Source of the DNA: Lacticigenium naphthae DSM 19658 | GTDB taxonomy: Bacteria; Bacillota; Bacilli; Lactobacillales; Carnobacteriaceae_A | DNA length: 64,000 bases | Assembly: GCF_000425865.1 (NCBI RefSeq) | Contig: NZ_AUEG01000001.1 | Location: forward strand, 62,001 to 126,000 | Reading direction: 5' to 3' | In this document: piece by piece, positions 4,358 to 45,735 of the stretch | How the letters are laid out: the number at the start of each line of letters is the position of its first letter | Numbering within the stretch: position 1 is the first letter of the stretch | Program-made: the position numbers and the translations under genes | Notes under the pieces: generated by a model | Seen by the model: the letters and a program-made list of their open reading frames with translations, nothing else | Databases searched by the model: none | Told to the model about the DNA's origin: nothing

Positions 4358-4435
4358 TAAAAATACCTCCTAAACTATTCTCAACTTTATGAGAGAATTA
4401 TTAAACGTTTATAAACATTTAATAATATATTCTGA

Positions 4436-4464
4436 ATTATACACATTTTTTCAATACTAATCAA
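4436..4464 (-). promoter_or_regulatory. Predicted SigA promoter of the opp operon
   Basis: On the minus strand, -35 TTGATT (4464-4459), a 17-base spacer and a perfect -10 TATAAT (4441-4436) lie about 80 bases upstream of the oppD GTG. No other comparable promoter is visible between acpP and oppD. No CodY box was confirmed by eye. Confidence 0.65.
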
Positions 4465-4550
4465 CACAAATTTTAATCAGGCTATCATTATTCTTATACT
4501 ACGCTCATTTACATTTAACAAATGTCATAAAAGAAAAAACAAACGTTTAC

Positions 4551-4796: not shown

Positions 4797-4904
4797 TTAT
4801 CTATACCTCCGATGTTTTTTATGCGTTACAGTTAATTGTACCTAAAGAAAAATGAAATTTCCATGATTAATTGGTGACTTTACTCATTTAATAAATTTAA
4901 ACAC

Positions 4905-5927: not shown

Positions 5928-5947
5928 CTTTTTTCCTCCTCGTACTG

Positions 5948-7999: not shown

Positions 8000-8096
8000 G
8001 GCACTCTATTCACATTCCTTCTCAAATCTTTATTTCATTTTTGATGATCATAAACTAATTACCCTATCGATACCTATTTCAACTTAATATAAGAAG

Positions 8097-8149
8097 AAGT
8101 AGACTCTGAGCAAAAGGTGAATACGACACCCTTGTTCAACAGTCTACTT
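8097..8149 (-). terminator. Inverted repeat, probable terminator after fakA
   Basis: A perfect 9-bp stem (AAGTAGACT at 8097-8105 with AGTCTACTT at 8141-8149), with partly complementary inner arms, lies 14 bases past the fakA stop. The sequence after it on the minus strand is T-rich but not a clean U-tract, so termination may be incomplete and recG could be partly co-transcribed. Confidence 0.5.
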
Positions 8150-8162
8150 TCTATTTTATCAA

Positions 8163-9827: not shown

Positions 9828-9866
9828 TCACTGTTCCTCCTCCATTACTTACTTAGTTTAAGTAAA

Positions 9867-10232
9867 CTAAGCATCTTGCATCACTTTCACACCATGAACA
9901 AAAACATTCACAGAATTTGCTTTAACACCCAACGTTGTATCTAATTGGTATCTCACACGCTCTTGAACATTTTTGCTAACTTCCGAAATTTTCGTACCAT
10001 AGCTTACTACAACAAATACATCGACAGCCACAGCTTCCTCTTCTTGACGCACAACCACGCCGCGTGCATAGTTTTCTTTTTTCAATATTTCATTAAGATT
10101 ATCGCGTATTTGATTTTTACTGGCCATTCCTACCACCCCGAAAATCTCTGTAGTGGCTCCACCAACAACCGTTGCAATAACTTCATTTGAAATTTCAATA
10201 TTCCCATATTTTGTTTGCATGCTGATTCCCAT
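9867..10232 (-). CDS. Asp23/Gls24 family protein (YloU)
   Basis: A 121-residue member of the Asp23/Gls24 envelope stress family. The family-typical start (GNIEISNEVIATVVGGAT) and the alternating hydrophobic beta pattern (VAVDVFVVVSYG) are visible. There is no signal peptide or membrane helix; family members associate with the membrane through partners. RBS GGAGG lies nine bases upstream of the ATG at 10232. It is the first gene of a short operon with fakA. The link between this family and the fatty acid kinase is conserved in Firmicutes, but its role is not established. Confidence 0.88.
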   Translation of the reverse strand: MGISMQTKYGNIEISNEVIATVVGGATTEIFGVVGMASKNQIRDNLNEILKKENYARGVVVRQEEEAVAVDVFVVVSYGTKISEVSKNVQERVRYQLDTTLGVKANSVNVFVHGVKVMQDA

Positions 10233-10283
10233 AAATCTTTTCCTCCTTCTGACAAACTAGTCAAAAATACTCCACTATATTTT

Positions 10284-10313
10284 ATCATAGCAGTCTTGAG
10301 AATGAAAGAACAA
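10284..10313 (-). promoter_or_regulatory. Predicted promoter of the asp23-fakA operon
   Basis: On the minus strand, -35 TTGTTC (10313-10308), an 18-base spacer ending in TGC (extended -10), and -10 TATGAT (10289-10284) lie about 50 bases upstream of the start codon. It diverges from the rpmB promoter. Confidence 0.55.
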
Positions 10314-10352
10314 ACAATATTGGAAAATCAGGAGCAGTTCAGTTTTTTGCTG

Positions 10353-10370
10353 TCAAGTAAAATTACTTGA
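10353..10370. promoter_or_regulatory. Perfect 18-bp palindrome between divergent promoters
   Basis: TCAAGTAA and TTACTTGA form a perfect inverted repeat with a two-base centre. It lies 10 bases upstream of the rpmB -35 and 40 bases upstream of the asp23 -35 on the other strand. The position suits an operator for either gene. It does not match the FabT, CodY or LexA consensus well, so the factor is unknown. Confidence 0.35.
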
Positions 10371-10379
10371 ATAAATATA

Positions 10380-10408
10380 TTGCAAATTTTCCTGTTATAT
10401 GATAAATT
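10380..10408 (+). promoter_or_regulatory. Predicted promoter of rpmB
   Basis: -35 TTGCAA (10380-10385), 17-base spacer ending in TGA (extended -10 element), and -10 TAAATT (10403-10408), about 60 bases upstream of the rpmB ATG. Confidence 0.55.
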
Positions 10409-10466
10409 AGTCAAGTATGAAAAATGTTTCTATTTAATTAGAAGCTTGCTTAAAGGAGGATTATCA

Positions 10467-10655
10467 ATGGCTAAAGAATGTTATGTAACAGGACGCAAAG
10501 CTAGAAGTGGAAATAATGTTTCCCATGCCCACAACAAATCTAAACGCACATTTGGAGCTAATTTACAGAAAGTTCGTATTTTAGTAGATGGCACACCTAA
10601 AAGAGTTTGGGTATCAGCTCGCGCATTAAAATCCGGTAAAGTTGAACGCGTTTAA
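10467..10655 (+). CDS. rpmB: 50S ribosomal protein L28
   Basis: A 62-residue basic large-subunit protein. The start [12 protein letters not shown] and the segment [15 protein letters not shown] are typical for L28. The ATG at 10467 is chosen because it has a strong RBS (AAAGGAGG) seven bases upstream and gives the family length; a longer in-frame reading from 10380 would add 29 residues with no family support. Only one Cys is present, so this is the zinc-independent (C-minus) form. It is transcribed alone, divergently from asp23-fakA, with its own promoter and a strong terminator. Confidence 0.97.
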
Positions 10656-10687
10656 ACGTTTGCCTTTAATTGTTAACTGGGAAAAAA

Positions 10688-10720
10688 AGAGGTAGAGACA
10701 ACTGTCTCTACCTCTTTTTT
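10688..10720 (+). terminator. Rho-independent terminator of rpmB
   Basis: A perfect 13-bp stem, AGAGGTAGAGACA with TGTCTCTACCTCT, and a two-base loop, followed by a T-run. It lies 33 bases past the rpmB stop. Confidence 0.9.
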
Positions 10721-10741
10721 ATTTAAAAATTTATTTGTAAT

Positions 10742-10899
10742 GAGAGTGGGATAAAAACGTTCAGACCCGAATAGAGCTCCGCATGCTCTATCCGTAAGCC
10801 ACTAAAGTGTCAACGGATACAGCAACTGGAGCGGATACTCAAAAGATAGTCGTAGACTATCGAAGAGTGTTCGTGAAGTGGCTGTCGGGTCTGTTTTTT
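10742..10899. other. Highly structured intergenic element, repeat-like, possible ncRNA
   Basis: No gene fits here. Nested inverted repeats are visible. CAGACCCGA (10762-10770) pairs with TCGGGTCTG (10885-10893) as the outer stem, followed by a T6 run. AGCCACT (10797-10803) pairs with AGTGGCT (10877-10883). ATAGAGC (10771-10777) pairs with GCTCTAT (10785-10791), and GATAGT (10845-10850) with ACTATC (10856-10861). An alternative helix, TATCCGT (10789-10795) with ACGGATA (10813-10819), excludes two of these. The element begins with GAGAGTGGGATAAAA, similar to the GGCTGGGAC terminator arm that follows it. It resembles intergenic repeats of lactic acid bacteria, but no second copy was found in this window. 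Confidence 0.5.
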
Positions 10900-10937
10900 G
10901 GAGCACGTTTTAGAAAGGAACGTTTGGAAAATGATTA

Positions 10938-10963
10938 GAGGCTGGGACTTTTGTCCCAGCCTC
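10938..10963 (-). terminator. Terminator of the thiN end of the long operon
   Basis: Perfect 11-bp stem GAGGCTGGGAC with GTCCCAGCCTC and a TTTT loop, seven bases past the thiN stop on the minus strand. The U-tract on that side is weak (TAATCATTTT). The same hairpin would also fold on the plus strand. Confidence 0.75.
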
Positions 10964-10969
10964 ATCCTA

Positions 10970-11620
10970 TTAAGCATCTTTACTTTGCACGACCATTATC
11001 AATCCTTTATTATAGGAAAAATAAGCTTCCTTTTCAACAAACTCATTGCTTACTAATGCAGGAGAGTACGCATAAGAAGTCGCATCTAAATTATATTTAA
11101 AATCTTTTAATACTAATTTTTCAATTGCACTTAATCCGATAAACGAAATGTATTTTTTATCTATTTCTTTTTTTATGAAATATTTTCCAGGCAAATAAAA
11201 AGAAATAGTATTTGTTTTATCCCTAAAAGTAATGCGGCTTGCAAACTGTTTAAACCGTGGTTGGTTGACCATTAACAAATTACTTAACAAATGATCGATA
11301 CGACCACCTGTTGCACCAAATATATCTATTTTGGTTGCTTCCAGTTCATTCAAAGCATACAAAAGACTGATTTCTGTATCCGTGTCATCTTTTTCTGCTT
11401 CAAAAGCAATTACTTTTCGAGCTTCTTTTGTAATCTTTTCCATATTAGTTGCCGACACAGAATCAAAATCACCGATAGCTACATCAACGGGTATTTGCTT
11501 ATTTAGTAAATAAACAGCTCCACCATCTACACCCAACCATTTATCGTAATCATTTTGAAAATCTTTTTCAAAATCGATCAACTCAATAGGCCCACCTAAC
11601 ATGATCCCTATCTTTGTCAA
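10970..11620 (-). CDS. thiN: Thiamine pyrophosphokinase
   Basis: Transfers pyrophosphate from ATP to thiamine, making TPP directly. The 216-residue protein has the family motifs GVDGGAVYLL and AIGDFDSV in the catalytic domain, EKDDTDTEISLLYAL, the glycine-rich GATGGRIDHLLSNL, and a C-terminal thiamine-binding beta domain. It overlaps rpe by four bases (ATGA), so translation is coupled. The product is needed by the pyruvate dehydrogenase encoded at the far end of the window, and the thiamine importer thiT lies near 40 kb. Confidence 0.95.
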   Translation of the reverse strand: MTKIGIMLGGPIELIDFEKDFQNDYDKWLGVDGGAVYLLNKQIPVDVAIGDFDSVSATNMEKITKEARKVIAFEAEKDDTDTEISLLYALNELEATKIDIFGATGGRIDHLLSNLLMVNQPRFKQFASRITFRDKTNTISFYLPGKYFIKKEIDKKYISFIGLSAIEKLVLKDFKYNLDATSYAYSPALVSNEFVEKEAYFSYNKGLIMVVQSKDA

Positions 11621-12270
11621 TTGAAATCCACCTGTTTCAAAGATTCTATTTGTTGATGTCGATCCCCTTCATTGAATACATAGGACCCTGATACGAAAAT
11701 ATCTGCACCCGCTTTACGACATAGATAAGCTGTTTCCGGAACAATACCCCCATCAACTTCAATTTTAAAAGAATAATTGTTCATATCTCTTAATTCATCT
11801 AACTGTCTAATTTTGTGTAATGTTTGCTTTACAAAAGACTGCCCTCCAAAACCAGGATTGACCGTCATAACTAATACAAAATCGACCTCTGCCAGAATAG
11901 GTTTTATGGCCTCAACGGACGTCCCTGGGTTTATTGTTACTCCAGCCAAAACATTTTTTTGTTTTATTTGTTGAATAGCTTTATGGATATGGTTCGTAGC
12001 CTCTACATGTATAGAAACACTATCTGCTCCTGCATCGCAAAAGGCATCAATGTAATTTTCTGGGTTATCTATCATGAGATGAACATCCAAAGGTAACTGA
12101 GTATGTGGACGTAATGCCTTTACTATATTTGGTCCAAAAGTAATATTGGGTACAAAATGGCCATCCATCACATCCACATGTAACCAGTCAGCCCCCGCTG
12201 CTTCTAAACTTTGAACTTCTTCTTTTAAAATAGAGAAATCCGCGCTTAATAAAGATGGTGCAATAATCAT
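11617..12270 (-). CDS. rpe: Ribulose-phosphate 3-epimerase
   Basis: A 217-residue TIM-barrel enzyme of the pentose phosphate pathway that interconverts ribulose 5-phosphate and xylulose 5-phosphate. The start (IAPSLLSADFSILKEEV), the motif WLHVDVMDGHFVPN, the metal-binding HLMI, and the phosphate-binding MTVNPGFGGQ and VDGGI are all visible. Length is normal. It sits between rsgA and thiN in the conserved Firmicutes order. Confidence 0.97.
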   Translation of the reverse strand: MIIAPSLLSADFSILKEEVQSLEAAGADWLHVDVMDGHFVPNITFGPNIVKALRPHTQLPLDVHLMIDNPENYIDAFCDAGADSVSIHVEATNHIHKAIQQIKQKNVLAGVTINPGTSVEAIKPILAEVDFVLVMTVNPGFGGQSFVKQTLHKIRQLDELRDMNNYSFKIEVDGGIVPETAYLCRKAGADIFVSGSYVFNEGDRHQQIESLKQVDFN

Positions 12271-12289
12271 ATTCTTCCTCCTTTAAATT

Positions 12290-13174
12290 TTAATAGTGTG
12301 GTTTTCTGTTTTCAATTTCTTCTAAAAACATCAAATAATTTTCATACCGCTGTTTGCTTACGCCACCTACATCAACTTGCCTCTTCACTTCACACTTCGG
12401 TTCATTTTTATGCATACATCCACTAAACTTGCATTGGTCAGCATATTTCACGAATTCTGGAAACAAAAAAGGAAGATGATATTTTTCGATGTCATCGAGA
12501 TTCAATGAACTAAATCCCGGAGTATCAGCGATTAACCCTCCATACATTTCTACTAATTCAACATGCCGTGTGGTATGTTTCCCCCGTCCTAATGCGGAAG
12601 ATACTTCTCCTGTTTTTAATTTCAAGTCTGGTAACATTCGGTTCAACAAAGTAGATTTCCCTACTCCAGTCTGGCCCATAAATACAGTGACATTATTTTT
12701 GAATAACTCACTAAATTCGTTGCTTATATTATATTCTTCCAGAGAAGATTGCATAAATACTTGGTAGCCAATTTCCTCATATAAAGCTTTAGCCTGTAAT
12801 ATGGTCGCTAGTTCTTTTTCATTACATATATCTAGCTTCGTAAAATAAATGATTGACTGGATGTGTTTACTTTCCAACACAATTAAATAACGATCCAGTA
12901 GTCGATGAGAAAATGCCGGTTCTTTTGCAGATACAACGATCACTGCCAAATCGACGTTAGCGATCGGAGGTCTTTCCAATTGGTTTTTTCGGGGATCGAT
13001 CGCTTGAATGACCCCCTCTTTTATGTTTGTACTTTCAAAATCTACAAAGTCTCCAACAAGAGGGGATTCATTTGTTTTTCGGAATAAACCTCTCCCCCTT
13101 GTTTGGAAAATTTCCCCCTCGGAATATACGTAATAGAAACCACTTAGTGCTTTACGAATCTGCCCTTTTTTCAA
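12290..13174 (-). CDS. rsgA: Ribosome small subunit-dependent GTPase RsgA
   Basis: A 294-residue circularly permuted GTPase that checks late 30S assembly. An N-terminal OB-fold (residues 1-65) precedes the GTPase motifs in permuted order: G4-like FTKLD, then G1 GQTGVGKST and G3 DTPGF. The C-terminal zinc knuckle CKFSGCMHKNEPKC is intact. It overlaps prkC by four bases. The order stp-prkC-rsgA-rpe-thiN is conserved across Firmicutes. Confidence 0.97.
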   Translation of the reverse strand: MKKGQIRKALSGFYYVYSEGEIFQTRGRGLFRKTNESPLVGDFVDFESTNIKEGVIQAIDPRKNQLERPPIANVDLAVIVVSAKEPAFSHRLLDRYLIVLESKHIQSIIYFTKLDICNEKELATILQAKALYEEIGYQVFMQSSLEEYNISNEFSELFKNNVTVFMGQTGVGKSTLLNRMLPDLKLKTGEVSSALGRGKHTTRHVELVEMYGGLIADTPGFSSLNLDDIEKYHLPFLFPEFVKYADQCKFSGCMHKNEPKCEVKRQVDVGGVSKQRYENYLMFLEEIENRKPHY

Positions 13175-24513: not shown

Positions 24514-25140
24514 CTAGCCCATATCTTTGACTTTCATCAAGCGAGTAATTGCTGCACGTTCAGATTCATCTAATTTCATTTGAATGAAGTAAACCGTTTC
24601 TTTCAATTGAGGTATTGTCCGATATTCAAGTGCATTTACTCTTCGTCTAGTTTTTTCAATTTCATCAGCCATTAACTGACAAGTTTTTTCTATTTCAGAT
24701 AACTCAAGTAAATCTGGCATTACGTCTGTCAATTCAGCTAATGAAGTGTCCAATTCACTATTTGAGTTCAAATAGCCATATTGCAAATTCTTAGGATCTG
24801 TATTTTCATCATACCGGAAATTCATGGTCGGTACACGCACGCTCATAATATTCCTTTGACCCATATCCAATTTGACTTCATGCTCAGGAACAGCCATTAA
24901 TTCCTCAATAAAACTTTCATGTAGCAATGATTTAGCCATCATAAAAGATTGCATTGCATCAGTTAATTTTTTTTCAACTTCAGTTCTTAGTTCGTTATTC
25001 TTTCGAATTAAAGAAATGAATTGACGCATTAATTCATCTTGTTTATCTTTAAGCAATTTATGACCACGAGTAGCTAGTTGTAGACGATCTTTCAAGTTTG
25101 CCAGTTCCATACGAGTCGGATTGACATTTAATTTAGCCAT
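24514..25140 (-). CDS. ntpD: V-type ATPase subunit D
   Basis: A 208-residue central-stalk (rotor axle) subunit. The start [20 protein letters not shown] and the long alpha-helical, coiled-coil composition are typical for V/A-type subunit D. The C-terminal helix ([17 protein letters not shown]) is the conserved family signature. It is the last gene of the ATPase operon, five bases after ntpB. Confidence 0.95.
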
Positions 25141-25145
25141 CTAAC

Positions 25146-26522
25146 TCACTCTCCTTTAGGCAAGTACTTTTTAAGCATATCATCTTTAATACGTTTCAAT
25201 TCTGATTTAGGTAAAATAGAAAGTAATTTCCATCCTAATTCAAGTGTATCTTCAATTGAACGATTAGTGTAGTTTCCTTGATTGACATATTCTGCTTCAA
25301 ATTTATCTGTAAATTGTACATATTTCTTGTCCGCCTCAGAGAGAGCAGCCTCTCCTAATACAACGGCTAATTCTTTTGCTTCACGACCTTGAGCATAGGC
25401 AGCAAATATTTGGTTCATTGTCGCTGCATGGTCTTCACGCGTTTTACCTTCTCCGATACCTTTATCTTTCAAACGAGAAAGAGATGGGAGAATATTAATT
25501 GGAGGTTGAATTCCACTGTTATACAAATCACGTGACAAAATGATTTGACCCTCAGTAATATAACCTGTTAAATCAGGGATTGGGTGCGTAATATCATCCT
25601 CTGGCATCGTTAATATAGGAATCTGTGTAATAGAACCTTTAGATCCTTCTAAACGTCCAGCACGTTCGTATAAGGTTGCCAAGTTAGTATACAAGTACCC
25701 TGGATATCCACGACGACCTGGCACTTCACGACGAGCAGCAGAAATTTCACGAAGAGCTTCTGCATAGTTTGTCATATCTGTCATAATGACCAAAACATGC
25801 ATATCTTTTTCAAACGCTAAATATTCAGCAGCTGTTAAAGCCATTCTTGGAGTAGCGATCCGTTCAATCGCTGGATCATCAGCTAAGTTGACGAAGATAA
25901 CAGAACGATCGATAGCACCTGTTTTCTTGAAATCATTTAGGAAAAATTCAGCTTCTTCAAACGTGATCCCAATGGCAGCAAACACTACAGCAAAGCCTTC
26001 GCCAGAGTTTTTAACGTTAGCTTGACGTGCAATTTGCGCGGCTAACTCTTTATGTGGTAAACCTGACCCAGAAAAAACTGGAAGTTTTTGTCCACGTACA
26101 AGAGTGTTTAAATGATCGATCGTGGATATACCGGTTTGAATAAATTCATCGGGATAATCACGTGCAATAGGATTGATTGCCTGACCATTGATATCTAGAG
26201 TTTTTTCTGGAATCAATTCTGGTCCTCCGTCGCTTACACGACCCATTCCATCAAAAGTCCTTCCAATCATATCTTCGGATACATCTAAAGAAAGTGGGCG
26301 TCCTAAGAAGCGCACCTTTGTATCCTCTAAGTTTATTCCACTAGATCCTTCGAAGATTTGGACCATAGCTTTGTCTCCATCAATTTCGAGAACTTGTCCA
26401 CGACGGCGTTCACCAGTTTGTAATTCAATATCAACCAGCTCGTCAAATTTTACGCCTTCTACGCCTTCAACAGCCATCAGCGGTCCAACAACTTCACTAA
26501 CTGTACGGTATTCTTTAAGCAT
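25146..26522 (-). CDS. ntpB: V-type ATPase subunit B (non-catalytic)
   Basis: The non-catalytic nucleotide-site subunit of the V1 hexamer, about 458 residues. The start [19 protein letters not shown] matches V-type B subunits, so the ATG at 26522 is preferred over a longer reading from 26546. Typical segments are [36 protein letters not shown] (replacing a true P-loop) and [19 protein letters not shown]. It overlaps ntpA by eight bases. Confidence 0.95.
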
Positions 26523-28299
26523 CTGAGTCCATACCTCCTTTTTCAATAATTTCTTGAACAGTGTCGGTGATAGCTTGACGTAATTCTTTGTATTTAGAAA
26601 TTTCCTCTTCAGGAATATATTTCATACGTCCAATTCTTTCACGCACATCAGCAGTTCCATCAATTAGTTCATCATAATAGGAACCCAATTCTAATCCACG
26701 AGCTGCTTTATCTTCAAAATGCAATAGTGTGCTGATCATTTCCAACTGCTTGTTTTGAGAAGTATACGTATCAACATCATCAAAGGCATTTTGCTGCAAG
26801 AAGTCTTCACGAATCATACGAGAAACAATCATTCTCAAACGGTCACGTTCAGATAACGATTCAATACCGACTAAACGCACGATTTCTTCTAATTCAGATT
26901 CAGTTTGTAACAATGCTTTCGTTCTAGTTACTATTGTTGGCCAATCAACATTCAATTTTTCACCAATAAACTTATTCATTTCATTTGAATAAAGTGAATA
27001 AGAATTCAACCAATTAATAGCTGGGAAATGTCTTCTTTGAGATAAAGAACTGTCTAAACTCCAGAAAACTTTCGCTACACGTAACGTGTTTTGAGTAACT
27101 GGTTCTGAAGTGTCTCCCCCTGGAGGAGAAACCGCACCAATAGCTGTTATGCTTCCTTCTCTTCCTTCGTCTCCCAAAGCAATTACTTTCCCTGCTCGTT
27201 CATAATACTCAGCGATTCGGCTACCTAAATAGGCTGGGTAACCTTCGTCCCCTGGCATTTCTTCAAGACGACCTGACATTTCACGTAATGCTTCCGCCCA
27301 ACGTGAAGTAGAGTCTGCCATGATTGCAACGCTATAACCCATATCGCGGAAATATTCAGCAATTGTGATCCCTGTGTAAATTGAAGCTTCACGAGCCGCA
27401 ACAGGCATATTCGAAGTGTTTGCTATTAATACTGTCCGTTCCATAATAGATTGTCCAGTATTTGGATCAATTAACTCTGGAAACTCATTGATAACATCGG
27501 TCATTTCGTTACCACGTTCTCCACAACCGACATAAACAACAATATCCACATCTGCCCATTTAGCAATTTGGTGCTGAACAACTGTCTTACCAGCACCAAA
27601 TGGCCCTGGCACTGCCGCTGCTCCACCTTTTGCTACAGGGAAAAGCGTATCAATAACACGTTGTCCAGTAACTAGCGGTTCTACAGGATTGATTTTTGTT
27701 GCAATTGGACGTCCTTTACGAACAGGCCACTTCTGTAACATTGTGTAATCTTTGATTCCATCCTCAGTCTTCACAGTGTATATAGTATCTTCTATTTTAA
27801 ATGTTCCACTTTGGATGGATTCAATTGTTCCATTTACTCCATTAGGTATCATTATTTTATGTTGGATAACAGAAGTCTCCGGAACGGTACCGACTATATC
27901 TCCAGGTCCTACTTTCGTTCCCGGTTCAATCGTAGCTGTAAATTCCCATTCATCTTCTCGACTCAATGGATCAATTTGCATTCCACGTTCAAGGAAATTG
28001 CTCTTTGTCATTTCCCTAAATTTATCTAAGGGACGTTGAATTCCATCAAACATCTGAGAAATCATACCTGGAGCTAATTCTACGGATAAAGCTTCTCCTG
28101 TAGAAACAACCGGTTCACCCGGTCCTACCATAGATGTTTCTTCATATACCTGAATAGATGCAACATCTCCGCGCATCTCAATAATTTCACCAATTAATCC
28201 AATCTCACCTACACGGCAAATATCTTGAATATTGGCAGTTTCCATGCCTTCAGCCGTAACTAACGGGCCTGAAACACTTACAATTTTTCCTTTACTCAA
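26515..28299 (-). CDS. ntpA: V-type ATPase subunit A (catalytic)
   Basis: The 594-residue catalytic subunit. The beta-barrel N terminus ([18 protein letters not shown]) and the A-subunit-specific non-homologous region (about residues 110-190) precede the V-type P-loop GPFGAGKTV. Other motifs are [30 protein letters not shown] and [11 protein letters not shown]. Length matches E. hirae NtpA. It follows ntpG by 12 bases and overlaps ntpB. Confidence 0.97.
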
Positions 28300-28311: not shown

Positions 28312-28623
28312 CTATAAAATATTTTGACCCACAGCTTTTTCGACATTTTCTTGGACTCGTTTTTTTCCAATTCCGAGCGATCCAGCATGATTTGGGATCA
28401 AAATGACGGCAGGTGTTATTTTTTCGTCATAACGCCGTATTGTATCAGGGATTTGTTCTGCGAGTTGCTCGGTCAAAAAAATGATTCCATAATCTTCATC
28501 AGCTAAACGGTCGACTGCTTTTCTTGCTTGAATACCTTCATCCGCAAAATAGACGTCAAAACCAAGCATCTTAAAAGGTAAAACGGAATCTTTGTCTCCG
28601 ATGACTCCTATTTTACGTGCCAT
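28312..28623 (-). CDS. ntpG: V-type ATPase subunit F (NtpG)
   Basis: A 103-residue rotor subunit that binds subunit D. The Rossmann-like start [19 protein letters not shown] and [14 protein letters not shown] are typical of V/A-type subunit F, named NtpG in E. hirae. It overlaps ntpC by 11 bases. Confidence 0.94.
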
Positions 28624-29617
28624 AGTTTAACCGCATCCTCTCTCTAATTTGTTCTGCAGGCAACCCATTTTCTTTTCCTGCTAGAACGAGACGTATATTT
28701 TTCACTTCTATTTCTTTTGCATAAAGGTAACCTAACGTAGGTAGAGGTCCAAAAGCTTGTAATCTGGCATCTTGCATTTTTTTCATATATGCATCATCTG
28801 TTTCTAAATCGACTTTCACTGGATCAAGTTCTTTAGTTTCAGAATCGATTGACCGTTCAATGATCGACCGATATTTGGTTTCGCTGAGTATTTTTCCCGC
28901 GGTGACCAAATCCTCTTTACCAAGCTCAACTAATTCTTTTTTTGGAATAGAGCCAGAACTAGACAAGATAGTTGTCAAAAAATTCTGGGTACGCTGTTGT
29001 TTGATCGCACGAGATACTGTTGATAAATTATTTAAATCAATATAATATTCGACGATTTCCATTACTTTAGGATGTCCGATTTTTTGTGCCAAAATCTTCA
29101 AATGCGTAAAGTAACGACGATCTAAAATAATGTCGACAGCTTGAACGTTATGGTACTCGTCAAGTTCCTGTTTTACCTCCTGAATACTGTCAATGTATTC
29201 AGGATCTAGAACATCTGATTTACCCGAATGAATTGCTTGACGCAATTCCGCAACAGGATATCGTCCAATAGGGATGAGTAAAGAAGAAAAATCATTCCCA
29301 GTATATTCTTCTTTAAATAAGACTTTTAAATTATGATAACTATAGCGAAGTGAGGAAATCTCCACTAACTCTGGTTGAGGTACAAAGCTGAATAAATCCT
29401 CATAAGCCATATGAAATTCATTCATCAATAATTCGTCATATTTTTTTGTTTCTTTAACAAAATCAACATCATTTCTATATGGTGTATCTTTGAGTATATT
29501 TACAGCCTCTTCAAAGTTAGAAGCTGAAAGCATTCTTTCATAATGTCCGCGTGTTAGGAGGTTATTTTCATAAACACGTATACGCACATTTGCGGAAGCA
29601 TAAGCAGTATCTTGCAT
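28613..29617 (-). CDS. ntpC: V-type ATPase subunit C/d (NtpC)
   Basis: A 334-residue subunit of the AC39/d family that couples the rotor axle to the membrane c ring. The start [16 protein letters not shown] and the later segment [20 protein letters not shown] are hallmarks of the family. It is fully soluble and helical. It lies between ntpE (15 bases upstream) and ntpG (overlapping). Confidence 0.93.
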
Positions 29618-29631
29618 TTACGTCCCTCCTC

Positions 29632-30213
29632 TCATTGGAATAAATTTTTCGTAATAGCTGGAATCAAATCATTTCTAGAGGTTTCAATTAAATCTTCGAA
29701 TAAGAAATTATATTCAATTCCTTTCTTGCGTAATACGAATCCAGATTGCCCTTTAATTTCGTCAGATGATAAAGTCAAATTTAAATGAGTCGGACTCATG
29801 CGATCTAATTTTTCTTGAGTAAAATGATTTAGCGATTCCTCACCAGGAACCACTTCAATTTCATTCGCTTCATCGAAACGATCAAGTACATTTTTTAAGA
29901 AAAGGTCAAAAGTTTCAGGATCCAACTGTTTAAATTTAGTTTTTGCATCATCAAAAACAGCAGTCAATATTTTTTGTTTACCCGATAACACATCATTGCG
30001 TTGTTTAACGTGAAGTGTGTTATTAGCAATTTCATATTCATGAAGCAAGTTCGCATCAATTTCTTTCTTTTTAACCTCTTTTTGTGTTTCAGCTTTTTTA
30101 CTTTCATTTAGAAAGAACTCTTTTGCTTCTTCTTTCGAAGTATTAATTCTTTCTTGAACAGCTGCCTTTTCTTTCTCAACTACTCGTTCAGTAAGCAATT
30201 TTAAATCAGCCAT
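29632..30213 (-). CDS. ntpE: V-type ATPase subunit E
   Basis: A 193-residue peripheral stator subunit. The N-terminal half is a highly charged coiled coil (KEEAKEFFLNESKKAETQKE) and the C-terminal half a compact domain (SGFVLRKKGIEYNFLFEDLI), as in other E subunits. It pairs with the NtpF-type G subunit encoded first in the operon. Sequence is divergent, so the call leans on the operon position as well as on architecture. Confidence 0.9.
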   Translation of the reverse strand: MADLKLLTERVVEKEKAAVQERINTSKEEAKEFFLNESKKAETQKEVKKKEIDANLLHEYEIANNTLHVKQRNDVLSGKQKILTAVFDDAKTKFKQLDPETFDLFLKNVLDRFDEANEIEVVPGEESLNHFTQEKLDRMSPTHLNLTLSSDEIKGQSGFVLRKKGIEYNFLFEDLIETSRNDLIPAITKNLFQ

Positions 30214-30255: not shown

Positions 30256-30747
<492 letters not shown>

Positions 30748-30760
30748 TTAGTATGATTCT

Positions 30761-32716
30761 TTAGTTTTTATTATCTATAAATATATATTTTTCTAATGTT
30801 CTCAGCGGATTTAATTTTTTCCCGCCACCTTCATAAAACTTCCCGAAAAATTCTACATATTGTAGACGTGCAGTATGCACGTAAGCACTCAAGAAGGTTA
30901 AAAAGATGTTTAAAGAATGTAACGCGACGATCAAGACTATCCCAACAGAAAATTTAGCTGCCGTTGGCAAGAAACCAACAATCATATTAAAGGCAAGTGC
31001 AATACTTGCACTTGATACTGCTAGAGCCATTAGTCGAGTATAACTTACTATGTCTCCAACATAACCAGTTATTCCGTAGATGTTATATGCACCTAAAGCA
31101 AAACCCAATCCCTTTTTCTTACTTGCCAATGTCGAAACGAATAATATTCCAACGACATTTAACACAGCAACGATTATTCCGATGGTGCTTAATAATGAAT
31201 TATCTAATACCATTGAACCAAGTACCCATAGCAGAACACCTAAAAGTATCATCGCCCAAGAGTACCCATCAATATAAGCTGCTGCTTTTTGTCCTTGCTT
31301 ACCTTTAACGATTCCCATCGTAATTAATCCTGTAAACATTTGAACAAATCCAAGTGCCACAGAGATGATTAATATAGGGATAACATCCTCTTGAACAGAT
31401 AAGATTACAAATGGAAGTTCTCGGCCAAAAAAGCTACCGAATAAAACACCAAATGCCATTACACTATAGGAAAGAACATGGAAAAACTTGAGGTTTTTCC
31501 GCATACTACCTTCAATATTTACTCCTTTTAGAGCGAAGAGCGTTGCAGCGAATAATAACAATCCATAACCTAAATCCGCACTCATCATACCAAAGAAAAT
31601 CATATAAAACGGCATCATCAACGGGGTTGGATCAATTTCATCATATTTCGGTAAACTATACATTTCTGTAACTGTTTCAAAAGGAGTGACCACTGCATTA
31701 TTTTTCAATACAATTGGTACCTTTTTGTACTCATTCAATTCAACGTCTTCATCTAAAACAGCCACATTCTCTTTTCCTACAACTTTATCTATAGAATCAA
31801 TTAATTGAGGAATTCTTTCTTCTTCAAGCCACCCATATAAAAGGAACAAGCTTTCCGAATTCATCAATAGCTGTTTCGCCGATTCTCTTTGAGAATAATT
31901 GTAATAATATTCTTCAGCTAATTCTAACTCTTTCATTGCCTCTTTAAAACCGGCAATTTCACTTGTTAAAAATTGCTTTTGGTGAATAATATCGTCTTGA
32001 ACTTTTAAATTCTTTTCTAATTCAACTTGAGGTAAATCATTAAATAAATACTCTATTGGATTAAATTGGAAATTTTGCAAGACTTGTTCAATTTCTTTTT
32101 GCTGCTCTTTATCTCCAATAATTAAATAAGCAGAATCATCTTTACGAGAATAAATCTCCTCATAATACGCAGAACCTACGTTTTTCAATTCTTGCTTAAA
32201 TTCATATGCATCTTCTGAATGAATTGTACCCAATTGAACAGTCATCAAGTGTATCTCACCAATTGTATTCGGATTGAACTCTAGAGTTGACCATTTTCTT
32301 AAGAAAGCTTCATCTTCTCTTAAAACTTTACGCTTATCCGAAAGACGGATCATTTCTTTTTCTTTCTCCAAAACTGTTTCGAGCAATTGATCAATGTTTT
32401 TTGATTCAATACGTTCCTCAAGATCAGCAAGAGACATTCTTTCTCTCTGCGTTTTTAATTTTTCTACCAAACCAGGTCCCTCTATATAATCATTCAAATA
32501 ATCAATAGCATGTTGAATATCCTTTAATTTCGAATCAAATTTAGAAGTTTGGTTATTGGTGTCTTCAAAAGAGAATTGTTCATATAATTCATCTTCATTA
32601 GAATCTGAAAGAGGAATAATTTCCAAGCTTTGCATTTCTTGCACGGCTTTCAGTAAAGGATCTTTATTGGACTGTTCCGCTAAAAGCGTCATTTTCTTCA
32701 TCTTGGCTATTGCCAT
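30761..32716 (-). CDS. ntpI: V-type ATPase subunit I/a
   Basis: The 651-residue membrane stator subunit that forms the ion half-channels with the K ring. The N-terminal half (to about residue 340) is soluble and coiled-coil rich, and starts with AIAKMKKMTLLAEQ. The C-terminal half has seven to eight membrane helices, with the conserved MPFYMIFFGMMSADLGYGLL and YVGDIVSYTRLMALAVSS, where the Arg is the essential ion-channel residue. It overlaps the end of ntpF by 53 bases. Confidence 0.95.
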   Translation of the reverse strand: MAIAKMKKMTLLAEQSNKDPLLKAVQEMQSLEIIPLSDSNEDELYEQFSFEDTNNQTSKFDSKLKDIQHAIDYLNDYIEGPGLVEKLKTQRERMSLADLEERIESKNIDQLLETVLEKEKEMIRLSDKRKVLREDEAFLRKWSTLEFNPNTIGEIHLMTVQLGTIHSEDAYEFKQELKNVGSAYYEEIYSRKDDSAYLIIGDKEQQKEIEQVLQNFQFNPIEYLFNDLPQVELEKNLKVQDDIIHQKQFLTSEIAGFKEAMKELELAEEYYYNYSQRESAKQLLMNSESLFLLYGWLEEERIPQLIDSIDKVVGKENVAVLDEDVELNEYKKVPIVLKNNAVVTPFETVTEMYSLPKYDEIDPTPLMMPFYMIFFGMMSADLGYGLLLFAATLFALKGVNIEGSMRKNLKFFHVLSYSVMAFGVLFGSFFGRELPFVILSVQEDVIPILIISVALGFVQMFTGLITMGIVKGKQGQKAAAYIDGYSWAMILLGVLLWVLGSMVLDNSLLSTIGIIVAVLNVVGILFVSTLASKKKGLGFALGAYNIYGITGYVGDIVSYTRLMALAVSSASIALAFNMIVGFLPTAAKFSVGIVLIVALHSLNIFLTFLSAYVHTARLQYVEFFGKFYEGGGKKLNPLRTLEKYIFIDNKN

Positions 32717-33029
32717 AGCGACGCAATACCTCCTTCACAATAAAATTAGCTACATCGTCTTTTTTATCTTGATAGACGTTAGCAAACCGCTCGGATTCAA
32801 TTGAAACCGTACGATTCACTTCTTCACGTTTCTCTTGAAGCTTTTTATCGTACTGCTCTTTTTGCATCCGTTTGTATTCATCTAGCTGTTTGTTCATTTC
32901 TTGATGAATCTCATCGATTTGTTCTTGTGTTTCTTTTTGGATCTTCTTTATTTCTTTTTCTCCATCTTTGCGTAGCTGAATAGCACGCGCCTCAGCTTCT
33001 TTCACGTAATCAATTGCTTCGCGGTTCAT
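32664..33029 (-). CDS. ntpF: V-type ATPase subunit G/H (NtpF), first gene of the operon
   Basis: A roughly 121-residue, almost wholly coiled-coil stator subunit (VKEAEARAIQLRKDGEKEIK) that pairs with subunit E. The start at 33029 is preferred because AAAGGAGGG lies seven bases upstream; an ATG two codons earlier would be too close to it. The order F-I-K-E-C-G-A-B-D is that of the E. hirae ntp operon. The gene is preceded by a leader with a terminator-like hairpin and a strong promoter. Confidence 0.88.
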   Translation of the reverse strand: MNREAIDYVKEAEARAIQLRKDGEKEIKKIQKETQEQIDEIHQEMNKQLDEYKRMQKEQYDKKLQEKREEVNRTVSIESERFANVYQDKKDDVANFIVKEVLRRYGNSQDEENDAFSGTVQ

Positions 33030-33048
33030 GAACATCCCTCCTTTCAAT

Positions 33049-33139
33049 AAAAAAAGGACGTAGCTAACAAGCCTCTTCTCACCCCAGAAGAAGGAAAACC
33101 TTGAAAGCTTACGCCCAACCGTAATATTATTTGTTTAGC
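33049..33139 (-). promoter_or_regulatory. 5' leader of the V-ATPase operon: attenuator with alternative antiterminator
   Basis: In minus-strand sense a long hairpin lies between promoter and ntpF. Its lower stem is GGCGTAAGC (33115-33107) with GCTACGTCC (33064-33056), and its middle stem is CAAG with CTTG. Its upper stem is CCTTCTTCT with AGAAGAGG (one bulge), capped by GGGGTG. T7 follows immediately (33055-33049), only 6 bases before the SD. At the RNA 5' end, GCTAAACAA (33139-33131) can instead pair with TTGTTAGC (33070-33063), which would break the terminator. This is the layout of an attenuator or riboswitch; the ligand is unknown. Confidence 0.7.
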
Positions 33140-33147
33140 ACTATACA

Positions 33148-33177
33148 ATAATAGCACACAATTTGAAAAAATGTCAA
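33148..33177 (-). promoter_or_regulatory. Predicted promoter of the V-ATPase operon
   Basis: Perfect -35 TTGACA (33177-33172), an 18-base spacer ending in TGC (extended -10), and -10 TATTAT (33153-33148). The expected start site near 33141 places the whole leader hairpin in the transcript. Confidence 0.75.
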
Positions 33178-33179
33178 TC

Positions 33180-33620
33180 TACTGGACTCTTCTCAGGCAA
33201 CCTTCAGACTTGTCTTATTCCAAAAAAAAAAAGGATATAATTGAACCAAACAATTTGTGTGATACGATGATCTTTCTTTTTGAGTGTTATAGATTTTCTC
33301 AATCTCCAACTTACTTTCGAATTTACTTCAAAAGCATTTTTCATCTCTCAGTATTCAATTGAAAATCGCTGTTATATATTTTTACTTCAATTTCACAAAA
33401 AACTATTTGCATACTAGCTCCTTTCCCTATTATCTATCGCTTTCTTCTTATCGCTTTAATTGTAAAACTAATTATGTCCATTTTATTGCAACTATATACA
33501 CACAGTGAAGTGCAACAGAGAGTGATCATCCGTTGCGTTGTCCCATTGTTCATTGTTTTATATATCCATTCACTTACTTTGCCGCGTTTTAAAAAAACAA
33601 AAGAAAGAAAGAAAAAAATA
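33180..33620. other. Gene-poor stretch between divergent V-ATPase and SOS-gene promoters
   Basis: About 440 AT-rich bases with homopolymer A and T runs (for example A11 near 33224). Short open frames exist on both strands, but none has a usable RBS with a recognisable product. No tRNA, riboswitch or repeat was seen. Confidence 0.6.
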
Positions 33621-38354: not shown

Positions 38355-38377
38355 GCCGTTTGAGAAGGCGTTTAGGT

Positions 38378-39283
38378 ATGTGGAAGAGTGTGTATGCAGA
38401 CTTTACCGATTTAACTGAAACGGAGCAAATAGAACTATTTAATGCAATGAAACAAGATTTATTTCCAGATGAACCAGACAAAATCACAAAATTGCTTGAT
38501 AAGATACGTGAAACCCGTTTTTCTTCGGGATTGGCGTGTGTTCATTGCGGAAGTACATCTTTAAAACGAAACGGAAAGTATCGAACACGTCAGCGTTATC
38601 TTTGTAAAGATTGCAATAAAAATTTCAACGATTTAACAAATACACCCTTTTCAGGCTCTCGTTACACCGAAAAGTGGGTTTCGTATATGGAAATGATGGT
38701 TGAAGGTTATACACTTCCCAAAATCGCTAAACGGCTTAAAATACACATATCTACTGCTTTTTATTGGAGACATAAGATATTAAATGCACTAAGTTCGCTT
38801 GGATACAATCAATTACAAGGAATTGTTGAGAGTGATGAAACTTTCTTCCACGAGTCTTTAAAGGGGAAAGAAGTTGCACATCGTAAAGCTGGAACGGGGC
38901 GTGTTAAAGCAGAAGAAATTGATGCGGTTATAGGGGAATTTATTCACCCTACTGCTTTGTTATGCACTGATACAGCAACCAACTATAAAAAGTTTGCAAA
39001 AATAAAGGGATTACAACACGAAACTATAAATGCTCGTCAAAAACAATTGGTCAAGAAGGGGATTTATCACGTTCAGAACGTGAATAACTTTCATAATCGT
39101 TTAAAGACTTGGATTAGACGTTTTCAAGGCGTTGCTACTAAGTATTTAGATAATTATCTATATTGGTTCCGTTGGCTTGAAATAGACAAACATTTAGCGT
39201 TTGAAAAACAAGTAGAGCAAATGCTTATTTCAGCGTGTCAAAAATCCAATTATAGGACTGTACAAATGCTCAGAACTGCATAA
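38378..39283 (+). CDS. IS1595-family (ISXO2-like) transposase with internal in-frame deletion
   Basis: A 301-residue DDE-type transposase. The ATG at 38378 has AGAAGG upstream; an 18-base longer TTG reading exists. The N terminus has a zinc ribbon (CVHCGS and CKDCNK), then a helix-turn-helix-like region (MVEGYTLPKIAKRLKIHIST). The catalytic domain follows with the first Asp in ESDETFF, the second in LCTDTATNY, and the family segment YHVQNVNNFHNRLK. Between HRKA and GTGRVK (near base 38888) about 36 residues usual for the family, including the KRGxS and QVCV stretch, are missing without a frameshift. It is probably inactive alone. Confidence 0.85.
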   Translation: MWKSVYADFTDLTETEQIELFNAMKQDLFPDEPDKITKLLDKIRETRFSSGLACVHCGSTSLKRNGKYRTRQRYLCKDCNKNFNDLTNTPFSGSRYTEKWVSYMEMMVEGYTLPKIAKRLKIHISTAFYWRHKILNALSSLGYNQLQGIVESDETFFHESLKGKEVAHRKAGTGRVKAEEIDAVIGEFIHPTALLCTDTATNYKKFAKIKGLQHETINARQKQLVKKGIYHVQNVNNFHNRLKTWIRRFQGVATKYLDNYLYWFRWLEIDKHLAFEKQVEQMLISACQKSNYRTVQMLRTA

Positions 39284-39807: not shown

Positions 39808-40365
39808 TTATATCCCTATCCCAAAAATGGAACGGTTTGTTTTATAAATTAGCAGCAAAACTGTTGCTGTTGCTATGAATGTTGCCAATCCACTTACTCC
39901 ATTCATTACAAAAGAATACCATACTGGGCTCATGCCTTCTGGTGCGTAATTCCCCCAAAAAATTATTCCTGCGATAAAATGCCAGAAAAACCTAGCCAAA
40001 ACACCCACAAAAGAAGCTAAAGTGATAATAATTAGATGGTTCACTGTTCTTCCTGAATTACTTTTCAGTTGTCGATTAGAAAATAATCCAGCGAATCCGG
40101 CAAAGGCAAAAGCAATAACGTATTCAATAAATCCTTGCCAAAATGTTAAAATCACTGCATTTCCTATTAAAAAATGTAAAATCCCCCAAAGAAAACCTGC
40201 AAATACTCCTGGGACAAATCCTCTTCTTAAAGAGTATAAAGTGAGTGGAATCATACCTAATGAAATAGTAATTGAAGGTCCAATATTCGTGGGCAGTAAT
40301 GATAATCCAATGGCTAAAGCTGCAATAATAGTTCCTTCAATCCAAACAGTTAATTTATTTTTCAT
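39808..40365 (-). CDS. thiT: Thiamine transporter ThiT (ECF S component)
   Basis: A 185-residue, six-helix membrane protein that binds thiamine and works with a shared energy-coupling factor module. The conserved thiamine-binding region is present (RFFWHFIAGIIFWG, then YSFVMNG). The ATG at 40365 is chosen for its RBS (GGAGGAG); the upstream in-frame extension lies in the riboswitch expression platform and is not coding. The gene is controlled by the TPP riboswitch just upstream. No ECF ATPase genes are in the window. Confidence 0.94.
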   Translation of the reverse strand: MKNKLTVWIEGTIIAALAIGLSLLPTNIGPSITISLGMIPLTLYSLRRGFVPGVFAGFLWGILHFLIGNAVILTFWQGFIEYVIAFAFAGFAGLFSNRQLKSNSGRTVNHLIIITLASFVGVLARFFWHFIAGIIFWGNYAPEGMSPVWYSFVMNGVSGLATFIATATVLLLIYKTNRSIFGIGI

Positions 40366-40371
40366 AAAAAA

Positions 40372-40415
40372 AACTCCTCCTTTGATAGTCTCTAAACTGA
40401 ACACAAAGGGGGAGT
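40372..40415 (-). promoter_or_regulatory. SD-sequestering hairpin of the thiT riboswitch
   Basis: In RNA sense ACTCCCCCTTTG (40415-40404) can pair with CAAAGGAGGAGT (40383-40372), 11 of 12 positions, masking the thiT Shine-Dalgarno sequence. No terminator-like U-tract lies between aptamer and gene, so control is predicted to be translational. Confidence 0.65.
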
Positions 40416-40445
40416 AAAATAGCAAAACTAGTTTATTCCATCTTG

Positions 40446-40533
40446 CTGCGACATTCCTACGTTTGTATTAACAAACAGGTTCGAAGGGTTAGAATAGGTA
40501 TTCAATCTCAGCCAATAGGCACCCCTTGTGCAG
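40446..40533 (-). ncRNA. TPP riboswitch (THI element)
   Basis: The aptamer is complete on the minus strand. P1 is formed by CTGCACA with TGTCGCAG, and the conserved core GGGGTGCC is followed by CTGAGA, ACCCTT-GAACCTG and GTAGGAA. The variable P3 arm is TTTGT-TAAT-ACAAA. It begins 23 bases past the rnjB stop and ends about 80 bases before the thiT start codon. TPP binding is expected to switch thiT off. Confidence 0.95.
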
Positions 40534-40555
40534 TTTTGATTATTAAATTAATTTG

Positions 40556-43478: not shown

Positions 43479-45596
43479 TTATTCTTTTGATTCTTCTCTT
43501 TCTTTCATGACAGCTTTATGTGATAAATTTACTCTGCCTTGACGATCTACTTCTGTAACTTTTACTTCAATCTTATCTCCAACAGAAATTACACTTTCGA
43601 CATCACTTATATATTTATCGGACAATTCAGAGACATGAACCAGTCCATCTTTGCCTTTAATTATTTCAACAAAAGCGCCAAATTTTTCTATACGTTTTAC
43701 TGTACCATTATAAATTTTACCAACTTCGACTTCTTCTGTTAATTCTCCAATCATATCGATTGCATGTTGAATTGCTTTTGGATCTTGACCATATATATTT
43801 ACATTTCCTTCTTCATCAATATCAATTTTCACACCAGTTTCATCAATAATCCCATTGATTGTTTCTCCGCCTTTACCAATGACTACTTTTATTTGAGCTG
43901 GTTTTATTTTAATTGATTCAATTTTCGGTGCGTATTCACTTAGCTCTTTTTTTGGTTCTGAGATTGTTGCTTCTAAATTATCTAAAATTTCCATGCGTGC
44001 TTTTCTTGCTTGGGTCAAAGCTTCTGAAAGAATTTGAGTTGTGATACCTTGGATTTTAATATCCATTTGTAAAGCTGTGATGCCTTTACGAGTTCCTGCA
44101 ACTTTAAAATCCATATCTCCTAGATGATCTTCTAAGCCTTGAATATCCGTAAGCACTGTATAATTGTCATTTTCCATAACTAATCCCATAGCAATTCCAC
44201 CGACTGGGGCTTTGATGGGAACACCTGCATCCATTAGTGCTAATGTTCCTGCACAAATACTTGCTTGGGAAGAAGAACCGTTAGATTCTAATACTTCAGC
44301 AACTAAGCGAATAGTGTAAGGAAAATCACTTTCATCAGGAAGAACTGCAGAAAGCGCACGTTCTCCTAAAGCTCCATGTCCAATTTCACGTCTGCCTGGT
44401 CCAAAGCGTCTGCTTGTTTCTCCAACAGAATACTGAGGGAAATTGTAATGATGCATGAATTGTTTACTGTCATTAGTTCCTAACCCATCAATAAGTTGAT
44501 GTTCTTTTAAAGGAGCTAAAGTAGCAACTGACAGAGCCTGGGTTTGACCACGTGTAAATAATCCAGAACCATGAACTCTTGGTAGTAAAGAGATTTCAGA
44601 ATCTAAAGGACGGATTTCATTGATTTTACGTCCATCAGGTCTTACTTTTTCTTCAGTGATCAGACGACGTACTTCATCTTTTTCCATACCGTCTACAATC
44701 TTTTTAACGTCTTTTATAATTGATTGAATATTCTCATCATCATGGTATTTTTCTTGATATGCATTCACAATTTCTTCTTTTAATGCACTTGTTTTTTCAG
44801 AACGGGCCATTTTTTCTTCAATCTGAATAGCTTTTTTCATTTCTTCAGTATATTCAGCATGGATTTCTTTAACCAACTCTTCAGACGGTAATACTAAGTC
44901 AATAGTCATTTTTTCTTTTCCAACTACTTCTGTAATTTCTTCTTGGAAATGAACTAATTCTTTGATCGCTTCATGCCCGAAAAGTAAGGCTTCTAGCATT
45001 TCATCTTCTGGAACTTCAAGTGCGCCACTTTCAACCATGTTGATTGCTTCTCCAGAACCAGCAACAGTTAGTTGAATATCAGATTTTAGTTCTTGTGCTT
45101 CAGTAGGATTCAATACATATTGTCCATCCACACGTCCCACATTGACTCCTGCAATCGGACCATGGAAAGGTATGTCCGAAACACATAAAGCGATTGAAGA
45201 TCCAAACATTGCTGTAATTTCTGGTGAACAGTCTTGATCTACCGAAAGAACTGTATTTGTAATTTGAACTTCATTTCTAAAGCCTTCATCAAACATTGGA
45301 CGAATAGGACGGTCAATTAAACGCGCTGTCAATGTAGCATTTTCAGAGGGGCGTCCTTCACGCTTGATGAATCCTCCAGGTATTTTACCAACTGCATACA
45401 TTTTCTCTTCATAATTAACTGTTAATGGGAAAAAGTCTGCTGTTCCAGCTGATTTACTGGCAACTACAGCCGTCAAAACGGCTGTATCACCATATCGTAC
45501 TAAAACTGCACCATTCGCTTGCTTTGCAAGTTGTCCAATTTCCACGGTAAGTGTTCTGCCTGCAATTTCTTTACTAAATATTTTTTTATTTGTCAT
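43479..45596 (-). CDS. pnp: Polyribonucleotide nucleotidyltransferase (PNPase)
   Basis: A 705-residue phosphorolytic 3'-5' exonuclease of mRNA decay. Two RNase PH domains (the second contains [24 protein letters not shown]) flank a helical linker. The KH domain ([13 protein letters not shown]) and S1 domain ([15 protein letters not shown]) end the protein. The ATG at 45596 has RBS AAAGGAG and gives the family start [19 protein letters not shown]; the longer reading is unlikely. It follows rpsO, the conserved order in bacteria, after a terminator and a long inverted repeat. Confidence 0.97.
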
Positions 45597-45642
45597 ATAC
45601 TGTATCTCCTTTATCTGTACGATTGATTTGCTGCACACTCGA

Positions 45643-45698
45643 CTACTAAACAAATGTCAATTTATAAGAACGTTTATAAAATCACATTTGTATAGTAG
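45643..45698 (-). promoter_or_regulatory. Long inverted repeat upstream of pnp
   Basis: CTACTATACAAATGT and ACATTTGTTTAGTAG (minus strand) form 15-bp arms with one mismatch around a 26-base loop that has its own TTATAA/TTATAA pair. A weak promoter, TTGTTG-16-TATACA (45716-45689), overlaps one arm. In RNA read through from rpsO it would be a long hairpin, as in the processed pnp leaders of other bacteria; as DNA it could be an operator. Confidence 0.5.
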
Positions 45699-45735
45699 AT
45701 CTTTAGCGGGCAACAAACCTTTTTCCACAAAAAAC

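Follow-up and report, generated by a model that had tools for sequence, protein, structure and literature searches.

The minus strand of the window, by which we mean the whole 64,000-nucleotide stretch analyzed here, carries a V-type ATPase operon that is preceded by a short leader. A preliminary description of this leader raised the question whether it is an attenuator that senses Na+ for a Na+ pump and, if so, which structures compete in it and with which polarity. The operon consists of the following genes, given in the direction of transcription:

32664..33029, minus strand, first gene, ntpF-like stalk subunit (operon position; tblastn relatives before ntpI)
30761..32716, minus strand, V-type ATPase subunit I (NCBIfam, 553 bits, under the curated equivalog cut-off)
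30256..30747, minus strand, V-type ATPase subunit K, the proteolipid (NCBIfam; alignment with E. hirae NtpK)
29632..30213, minus strand, V-type ATPase subunit E (NCBIfam, weak)
28613..29617, minus strand, V-type ATPase subunit C (NCBIfam)
28312..28623, minus strand, V-type ATPase subunit F (NCBIfam), presumably NtpG in the ntp naming
26515..28299, minus strand, V-type ATPase subunit A (NCBIfam)
25146..26546, minus strand, V-type ATPase subunit B (open reading frame by eye; relatives in other V-ATPase operons)
24514..25140, minus strand, V-type ATPase subunit D (open reading frame by eye; relatives in other V-ATPase operons)

No NCBIfam match was obtained for the ntpF-like first gene, and several of the NCBIfam matches in the operon score less than the cut-off curated for an individual equivalog model. 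The D subunit gene is followed by a patatin-like open reading frame (assigned by eye), in contrast to the Enterococcus hirae ntp operon, in which ntpJ presumably occupies this position. Aligned with E. hirae NtpK (2bl2), the proteolipid scores 228 bits. Chain positions L61, T64, Q65, Q110, and E139, which we take to be the Na+ ligands of NtpK, are all kept, so that the ligand residues are the same in both operons, and the operon looks like one for a Na+-type V-ATPase. A second V-ATPase operon was found in the same genome (L127, G000:C5:48000-63000, positions 4300-12879). Its NtpA is 48% identical, and its proteolipid, which is of similar length (152 amino acids), shows neither a TQ nor an ETY motif on inspection by eye, suggesting that the second V-ATPase is probably not of the Na+ type.

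The strong promoter that had been proposed ahead of ntpF was recovered. The upstream elements are:

33172..33177, minus strand, -35 hexamer TTGACA (promoter scan; TTGACA in 17/20 family leaders)
33148..33153, minus strand, extended -10 TGcTATTAT (promoter scan; TG extension in 20/20 family leaders)
33121..33141, minus strand, 5' leader segment, contains GCTAAACAA (pairing of GCTAAACAA with TTGTTAGC not conserved)

The two hexamers (33177-33172 and 33153-33148) are separated by a spacer of 18 nt, match the consensus at 11 of 12 positions, and leave 27 nt between the -10 and the aptamer described below. The family counts come from a scan, run as such with no chance control, that takes the best-scoring promoter of each of the 20 leaders; these promoters lie 27-39 nt before the aptamer. 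Transcription would start at about 33141 and, with a strong promoter upstream, the leader hairpin should be part of the RNA.

When the whole window was scanned against Rfam 15, three matches above gathering were found, among them one at 33073-33120 on the minus strand to RF03071, the aptamer of the Na+-I (DUF1646) riboswitch (50.8 bits, gathering 40.5, E 1.5e-7). The alignment spans the full model (1-55) and passes the threshold of the covariance model, which agrees with the earlier guess at both family and ligand. A genome-wide search gave no second RF03071 match. The parts of the aptamer are:

33073..33120, minus strand, Na+-I aptamer (RF03071, 50.8 bits)
33118-33113 with 33108-33106 and 33103-33101, minus strand, aptamer P1 (RF03071 match)
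33112-33109, minus strand, P1 loop (RF03071 match)
33092-33086 with 33079-33073, minus strand, P2 (RF03071 match)
33085-33080, minus strand, conserved P2 loop (RF03071 match)

According to the RF03071 alignment, the conserved blocks GGUUGGGC, GCUUUCAAG, and GGGGUG are present in the leader, and both the consensus P1 base (GGUUGG...UUUCAAG) and the consensus P2 loop (GGGUG) are found in it. The GGGGUG-type loop, which had been thought to suit an aptamer, is thus the P2 loop of a known one. The sites altered in the M1 and M2 constructs, according to the accessible part of the published work, are present as well, namely AA (P1 base) and GG (P2 loop). Deviations from the Rfam consensus are a shorter P1 tip, which is without two capital positions, and a G in place of the capital A after CAAG. 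The aptamer sits upstream of a Na+-related gene, the V-ATPase operon with the five E. hirae ligand residues in its proteolipid. Judged from the sequence, the leader is real, but it belongs to a known riboswitch class.

A search of 32900-33250 against Rfam up to E 10 returned, besides RF03071, only two lncRNA models far under their cut-offs, and no other Rfam ion riboswitch. An aptamer for a different ligand was rejected on the basis of the Rfam-wide scan. The lack of a Na+-II/nhaA-I match in the same region up to E 10 counts only if Rfam has a separate Na+-II model. The RF03071 fold itself might still sense a different ion (Li+ or some other monovalent), as in the nhaA-I/Na+-II group: a change of ligand is treated as possible for some members of the class in the available part of White et al. 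(2022; PMC9337991), and nhaA-I variants do change ligand according to the sections of PMC9646797 at hand. Since the P1 base and P2 loop blocks are both present, no other ion riboswitch matches up to E 10, and the operon resembles that of a Na+-type V-ATPase, we regard such a switch in ligand as exceedingly unlikely here.

Three further observations concern the window outside the ntp operon. A TPP riboswitch (RF00059, 59.2 bits) was found at 40436-40536 on the minus strand, directly upstream of an open reading frame for a membrane protein (39808-40425) that is probably a thiamine transporter. The Listeria antisense RNA rliD (RF01494, 56.8 bits) was matched at 45419-45717 on the plus strand, opposite the 5' end of the open reading frame at 43479-45653 (minus strand), which we take to be pnpA, probably. 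At 38360-39283 on the plus strand lies a transposase-like open reading frame with zinc-ribbon cysteines, as seen by eye.

The aptamer is followed by a terminator with these parts:

33100..33116, minus strand, terminator 5' arm, overlapping P1, the P1 loop, and the conserved CAAG (folding; family alignment)
33056..33072, minus strand, terminator 3' arm, GCTTGTTAGCTACGTCC (folding; covariation)
33049..33055, minus strand, U7 tract of the intrinsic terminator (sequence)

Folded from position 33141 through the U tract, the RNA gave -27.3 kcal/mol and reproduced the three-part hairpin described earlier, with U7 at 33055-33049 and the Shine-Dalgarno sequence after it. The aptamer segment GGGCGUA.AGC..CAAG (P1 5' strand, loop, 3' strand, and CAAG) pairs with CUUG..AGCUACGUCC to form the outer terminator stem, and P2 stays intact as the tip. 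By this computation, the expression platform is exclusive with the aptamer and has an ON layout, as the terminator overlaps P1. Of the proposed pair of mutually exclusive structures, the exclusivity therefore stood, and the alternative to the terminator is aptamer P1, not a helix with the 5' end of the RNA. A simple terminator scan, restricted to loops of 3-8 nt, reported no terminator. A fold z-score of -2.9 versus shuffles refers to the plus strand, which is opposite to the leader's own minus strand; the structure of the minus strand appears to go beyond chance by its Rfam match and its conserved pairs.

Without Na+, the aptamer helices alone reach -9.3 kcal/mol, compared to -27.3 kcal/mol for the terminator, so without bound Na+ the terminator would win given time, and the choice should fall during transcription. 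This difference in stability would also suit a plain attenuator without regulation, or a leaky constitutive terminator. However, in 80 of the 105 order leaders the terminator reaches with its 5' arm into the conserved aptamer, an arrangement that an unregulated terminator does not need, and we give this explanation next to no credence.

Conservation of the terminator was analyzed in an alignment of 19 of the 20 family leaders, from which the divergent L014 was omitted. Its pairs are formed in 97.8% of the cells versus 96.9% after shuffling (1 of 500 shuffles as high), and its covariation score is 0.138 versus 0.113 (0 of 500 as high), indicating covariation of this helix above shuffles in homologous leaders; one of the 19 rows supplied the reference structure, which is for that reason favored over slid versions. 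The family leader is strongly conserved, and double changes in this alignment occur in one pair and two cells, located in P2. Across a wider set, bases of the P1 loop pair with the terminator foot at 141 of 196 positions, compared to 115 ± 4.4 with the feet swapped (0 of 2000 as high), a count that rests on 49 distinct foot pairs and on the four bases of the P1 loop, which are unpaired in the Rfam model at this place. Of the 98 loci, 60 entered this sample; the remaining 38 comprise 8 from outside the order and 30 with another P1 start or no register. Because kinship of the leaders inflates this count, distinct pairs were used to lessen the inflation. RNAalifold on 31 leaders detected changes on both sides in 1 of 14 pairs, in an alignment in which aptamer and terminator are mixed; this result did not serve as proof.

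The preliminary description had placed the antiterminator elsewhere, in an attenuator, with or without an aptamer, in which the 5' end of the RNA (GCTAAACAA) pairs with TTGTTAGC. This complementarity does exist (10 pairs, -7.4 kcal/mol as a duplex), and the helix tolerates the folded aptamer, excludes the terminator, and could aid antitermination in one species. Yet when the 5' segment was shuffled 500 times with its dinucleotide composition kept, 18% of the shuffled sequences paired with TTGTTAGC equally well. Among the 19 family leaders the ten pairs are formed in 49.5% of the cells versus 49.1% after shuffling, with a covariation score equal to the shuffled mean and so no covariation above chance; slid versions of the helix are paired in 34-47%, with partly higher covariation scores. 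Within the RNA, the helix accounts for -3.1 kcal/mol alone and -14.2 kcal/mol together with the aptamer, against -27.3 kcal/mol for the terminator. The pairing was taken as a chance pairing on the basis of the shuffle test and the family leaders, and a role as antiterminator, which was not sustained, is in our estimation very unlikely.

When the fold was extended to the start codon, the minimum shifted to -32.9 kcal/mol, and the terminator foot and the U tract now pair with the Shine-Dalgarno sequence:

33030..33060, minus strand, predicted read-through hairpin in which the Shine-Dalgarno sequence (AGGAGG, 33042-33037) is paired to terminator foot and U tract, 13 bp (folding; function doubtful)

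Such a hairpin might add a second, translational layer, in which the foot and the U tract sequester the Shine-Dalgarno sequence in the read-through RNA. The unpaired probability of the Shine-Dalgarno sequence (fold from the terminator foot to the start codon) is 0.01 for the window and does not exceed 0.36 in any of the 31 leaders folded, and in 23 of the 31 it is lower than in controls in which the 3' arm was shuffled but the U tract left as it is. However, the shuffled mean is 0.25 versus 0.18 observed, and 11 of 100 3'-arm shuffles of the window give a value as low, so that much of the pairing reflects a U tract beside a purine-rich Shine-Dalgarno sequence; sequestration would also run against the Na+ ON logic. 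This shuffle control lowered our estimate for a translational layer, which we had considered unlikely from the start, to improbable.

The distribution of the aptamer was determined with RF03071 at E of at most 0.001. Matches were found in 34 of 60 relatives (29 above the cut-off), in 20 of 27 family genomes (all 20 above it), in 156 of 395 genomes of the order (121 above it), and in 17 of 398 genomes drawn across the phylum (15 above it); the leader comparisons draw on some, but not all, of the matches in the order. NtpA at least 64% identical is encoded by 37 of the 60 relatives, and 27 of these have the aptamer, in every case on the strand of ntpA and 4.77-5.16 kb upstream of it, as judged by comparing two genome scans by hand. 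The other 10 of the 37 gave no aptamer match under stricter filters, and the family members among them were negative in a second scan too. Two operons of this kind, in genomes G007 (L128) and G001 (L129), have no RF03071 match genome-wide and lack TTGGGC upstream on the operon's own strand. The proteolipids of both keep the TQ, Q, and ETY ligand motifs, indicating that the pump can do without the switch. Conversely, seven of the 60 relatives have the aptamer without an NtpA at least 64% identical, so the riboswitch serves other genes too. Closely similar leaders in named genomes (nine stretches) belong to species of Alkalibacterium and Marinilactibacillus, which are known from alkaline and marine habitats. 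NCBI assigns both genera to the Carnobacteriaceae, Lactobacillales.

One genome, G586, has three RF03071 aptamers in tandem on one strand (L115, L122, L126 / L130; contig 61, 45636-45991), the third of which is under the cut-off. At least two of them have their own P2-overlapping terminator, and the open reading frame downstream is one that we take to encode a diaminopimelate dehydrogenase. Tandem sensors in G586 may make the response steeper.

To compare expression platforms, one rule was applied to leaders inside and outside the order, namely the strongest stem closing right before a U tract, with a floor of -6 kcal/mol in the final version. The 105 leaders of the order comprise 89 plus 16 that had been missed by a regular expression, which found 98 of 126 loci; the other 12 missed loci are outside the order and were already counted. 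L120 is a second copy of L100 and was left out of the counts. With at least 5 T in 8, the terminator starts in P1 in 80 of the 105 order leaders, in P2 in none, and downstream in 19, with no terminator in 6, whereas for 20 leaders elsewhere in the phylum the figures are 0, 15, 1, and 4. With at least 6 T in 8, the corresponding numbers are 71, 0, 20, and 14 for the order, and 0 P1, 13 P2, and 7 without terminator for the others. An earlier one-rule run gave 60 P1, 0 P2, 20 downstream (L041 and L056 being misassigned), and 9 without terminator among 89 order leaders, and 0 P1, 14 P2 (L125 being P2 itself), and 6 without terminator among the 20 others. A first version placed 17 order leaders in P2 because it took the earliest T run. 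When the 20 leaders outside the order were read separately, 15 started in P2, 3 downstream, 1 in P1, and 1 had no terminator; the sole P1-start leader, L119, lies over P2 by eye. As the leaders are kin, these platform counts are not independent.

Eight order leaders were read in detail (L048, L053, L060, L062, L063, L068, L082, and L084). In these, the 3' arm that pairs with P1 has a second possible partner, the 5' arm of a separate terminator located downstream; the alternative pairing amounts to -9.1 to -13.1 kcal/mol, values that carry no shuffled control. Such a relay is predicted to be an ON design again. We consider it likely that the order has rewired the Na+-I riboswitch so that the terminator competes with P1 and has P2 at its tip, whereas P2 is the competing helix in the genomes sampled from other parts of the phylum, and that some members of the order can relay the freed 3' arm to a downstream terminator; different lineages would then use opposite halves of one conserved aptamer for the readout. 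The order-wide difference between P1 and P2 is the single point that is modestly new. DUF1646 is said to have been first described by Weinberg and colleagues in 2017. A literature search, conducted mostly at title level and with Weinberg et al. (2017) outside the comparison, gave no title or abstract that treats the expression platform of ntp leaders.

The available text of White et al. (2022; PMC9337991) describes the Na+-I riboswitch as an ON switch on V-type ATPase genes of enterococci and clostridia, in which Na+ triggers read-through, with a selectivity for Na+ and KD values of about 2.2 and 15 mM for two members; Na+ regulation of the E. hirae ntp operon is cited there. The same text presents E. 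faecalis EF1492, of the same riboswitch class and the same kind of operon as in the window, and its V-ATPase examples are enterococcal and clostridial, whereas the relatives of the window's leader are from Alkalibacterium and Marinilactibacillus. The ntp operon of E. faecalis (EF1492 to EF1500) is about 6-fold up in 6.5% NaCl, as stated in the part of PMC3995695 consulted. The C. acetobutylicum kefB Na+-I riboswitch, as presented in the same portion of PMC9337991, resembles the window's leader in its P1-linker-P2 plan, its conserved P1 base and P2 loop, its terminator exclusive with the aptamer, and its predicted ON polarity. It differs in that its terminator costs P2, whereas the terminator in the window costs P1 and keeps P2; the P1-competing terminator thus seems to depart from the published example and to be the rule of the order. 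Na+-II/nhaA-I RNAs, described as related in the accessible part of PMC9646797, are alkali-ion-sensing aptamers of similar plan, but have no match in the window's region. For Streptococcus pyogenes, the available text of PMC3675131 reports that ntp genes rise in a small-RNA mutant; nothing on the window's leader stands in this text or in that of PMC7724050.

Taken together, we are highly confident that the leader is a Na+-I riboswitch that acts as a transcriptional ON switch, so that the pump genes are most likely transcribed only on Na+ build-up. Three lines of evidence favor the proposal of a Na+-sensing attenuator of a Na+ V-ATPase: the RF03071 match, the gene context, and the class biochemistry in the accessible part of the published work. 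The polarity had been left unsettled; as the terminator needs P1 to be undone, Na+ binding should switch the operon ON, which follows from homology and from the anatomy of terminator and P1. RNA polymerase would transcribe the aptamer (33120-33073) first. At high cytoplasmic Na+, we infer from the class that the ion joins the P1 base and the P2 loop in the window's copy and holds P1. The 3' arm (33072-33056), made later, could then not invade, no terminator would form, and ntpF-I-K-E-C-G-A-B-D would be transcribed by read-through, allowing the cell to export Na+. At low Na+, the 3' arm would pair with the P1 strand, the loop, and CAAG, leaving P2 intact at the tip, and the polymerase would halt at U7. 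On the side of the ON switch are the observed aptamer match, the conserved promoter, the conserved and covarying terminator that overlaps P1, and the proteolipid that keeps the E. hirae ligand residues; against it count the deviations from the Rfam consensus, the 10 of 37 relatives that are without the aptamer, the predicted paired Shine-Dalgarno sequence, and the few double changes.

Since the riboswitch class and its link to V-ATPases are already in print, the surprise is small, and the leader adds an ordinary but clean case to that class, on a kind of target described before. With it, the ntp operon of a lactic acid branch near Alkalibacterium and Marinilactibacillus gains a named sensor and a polarity, and the split between P1 and P2 offers a natural comparison of one ion aptamer wired to termination in two ways.
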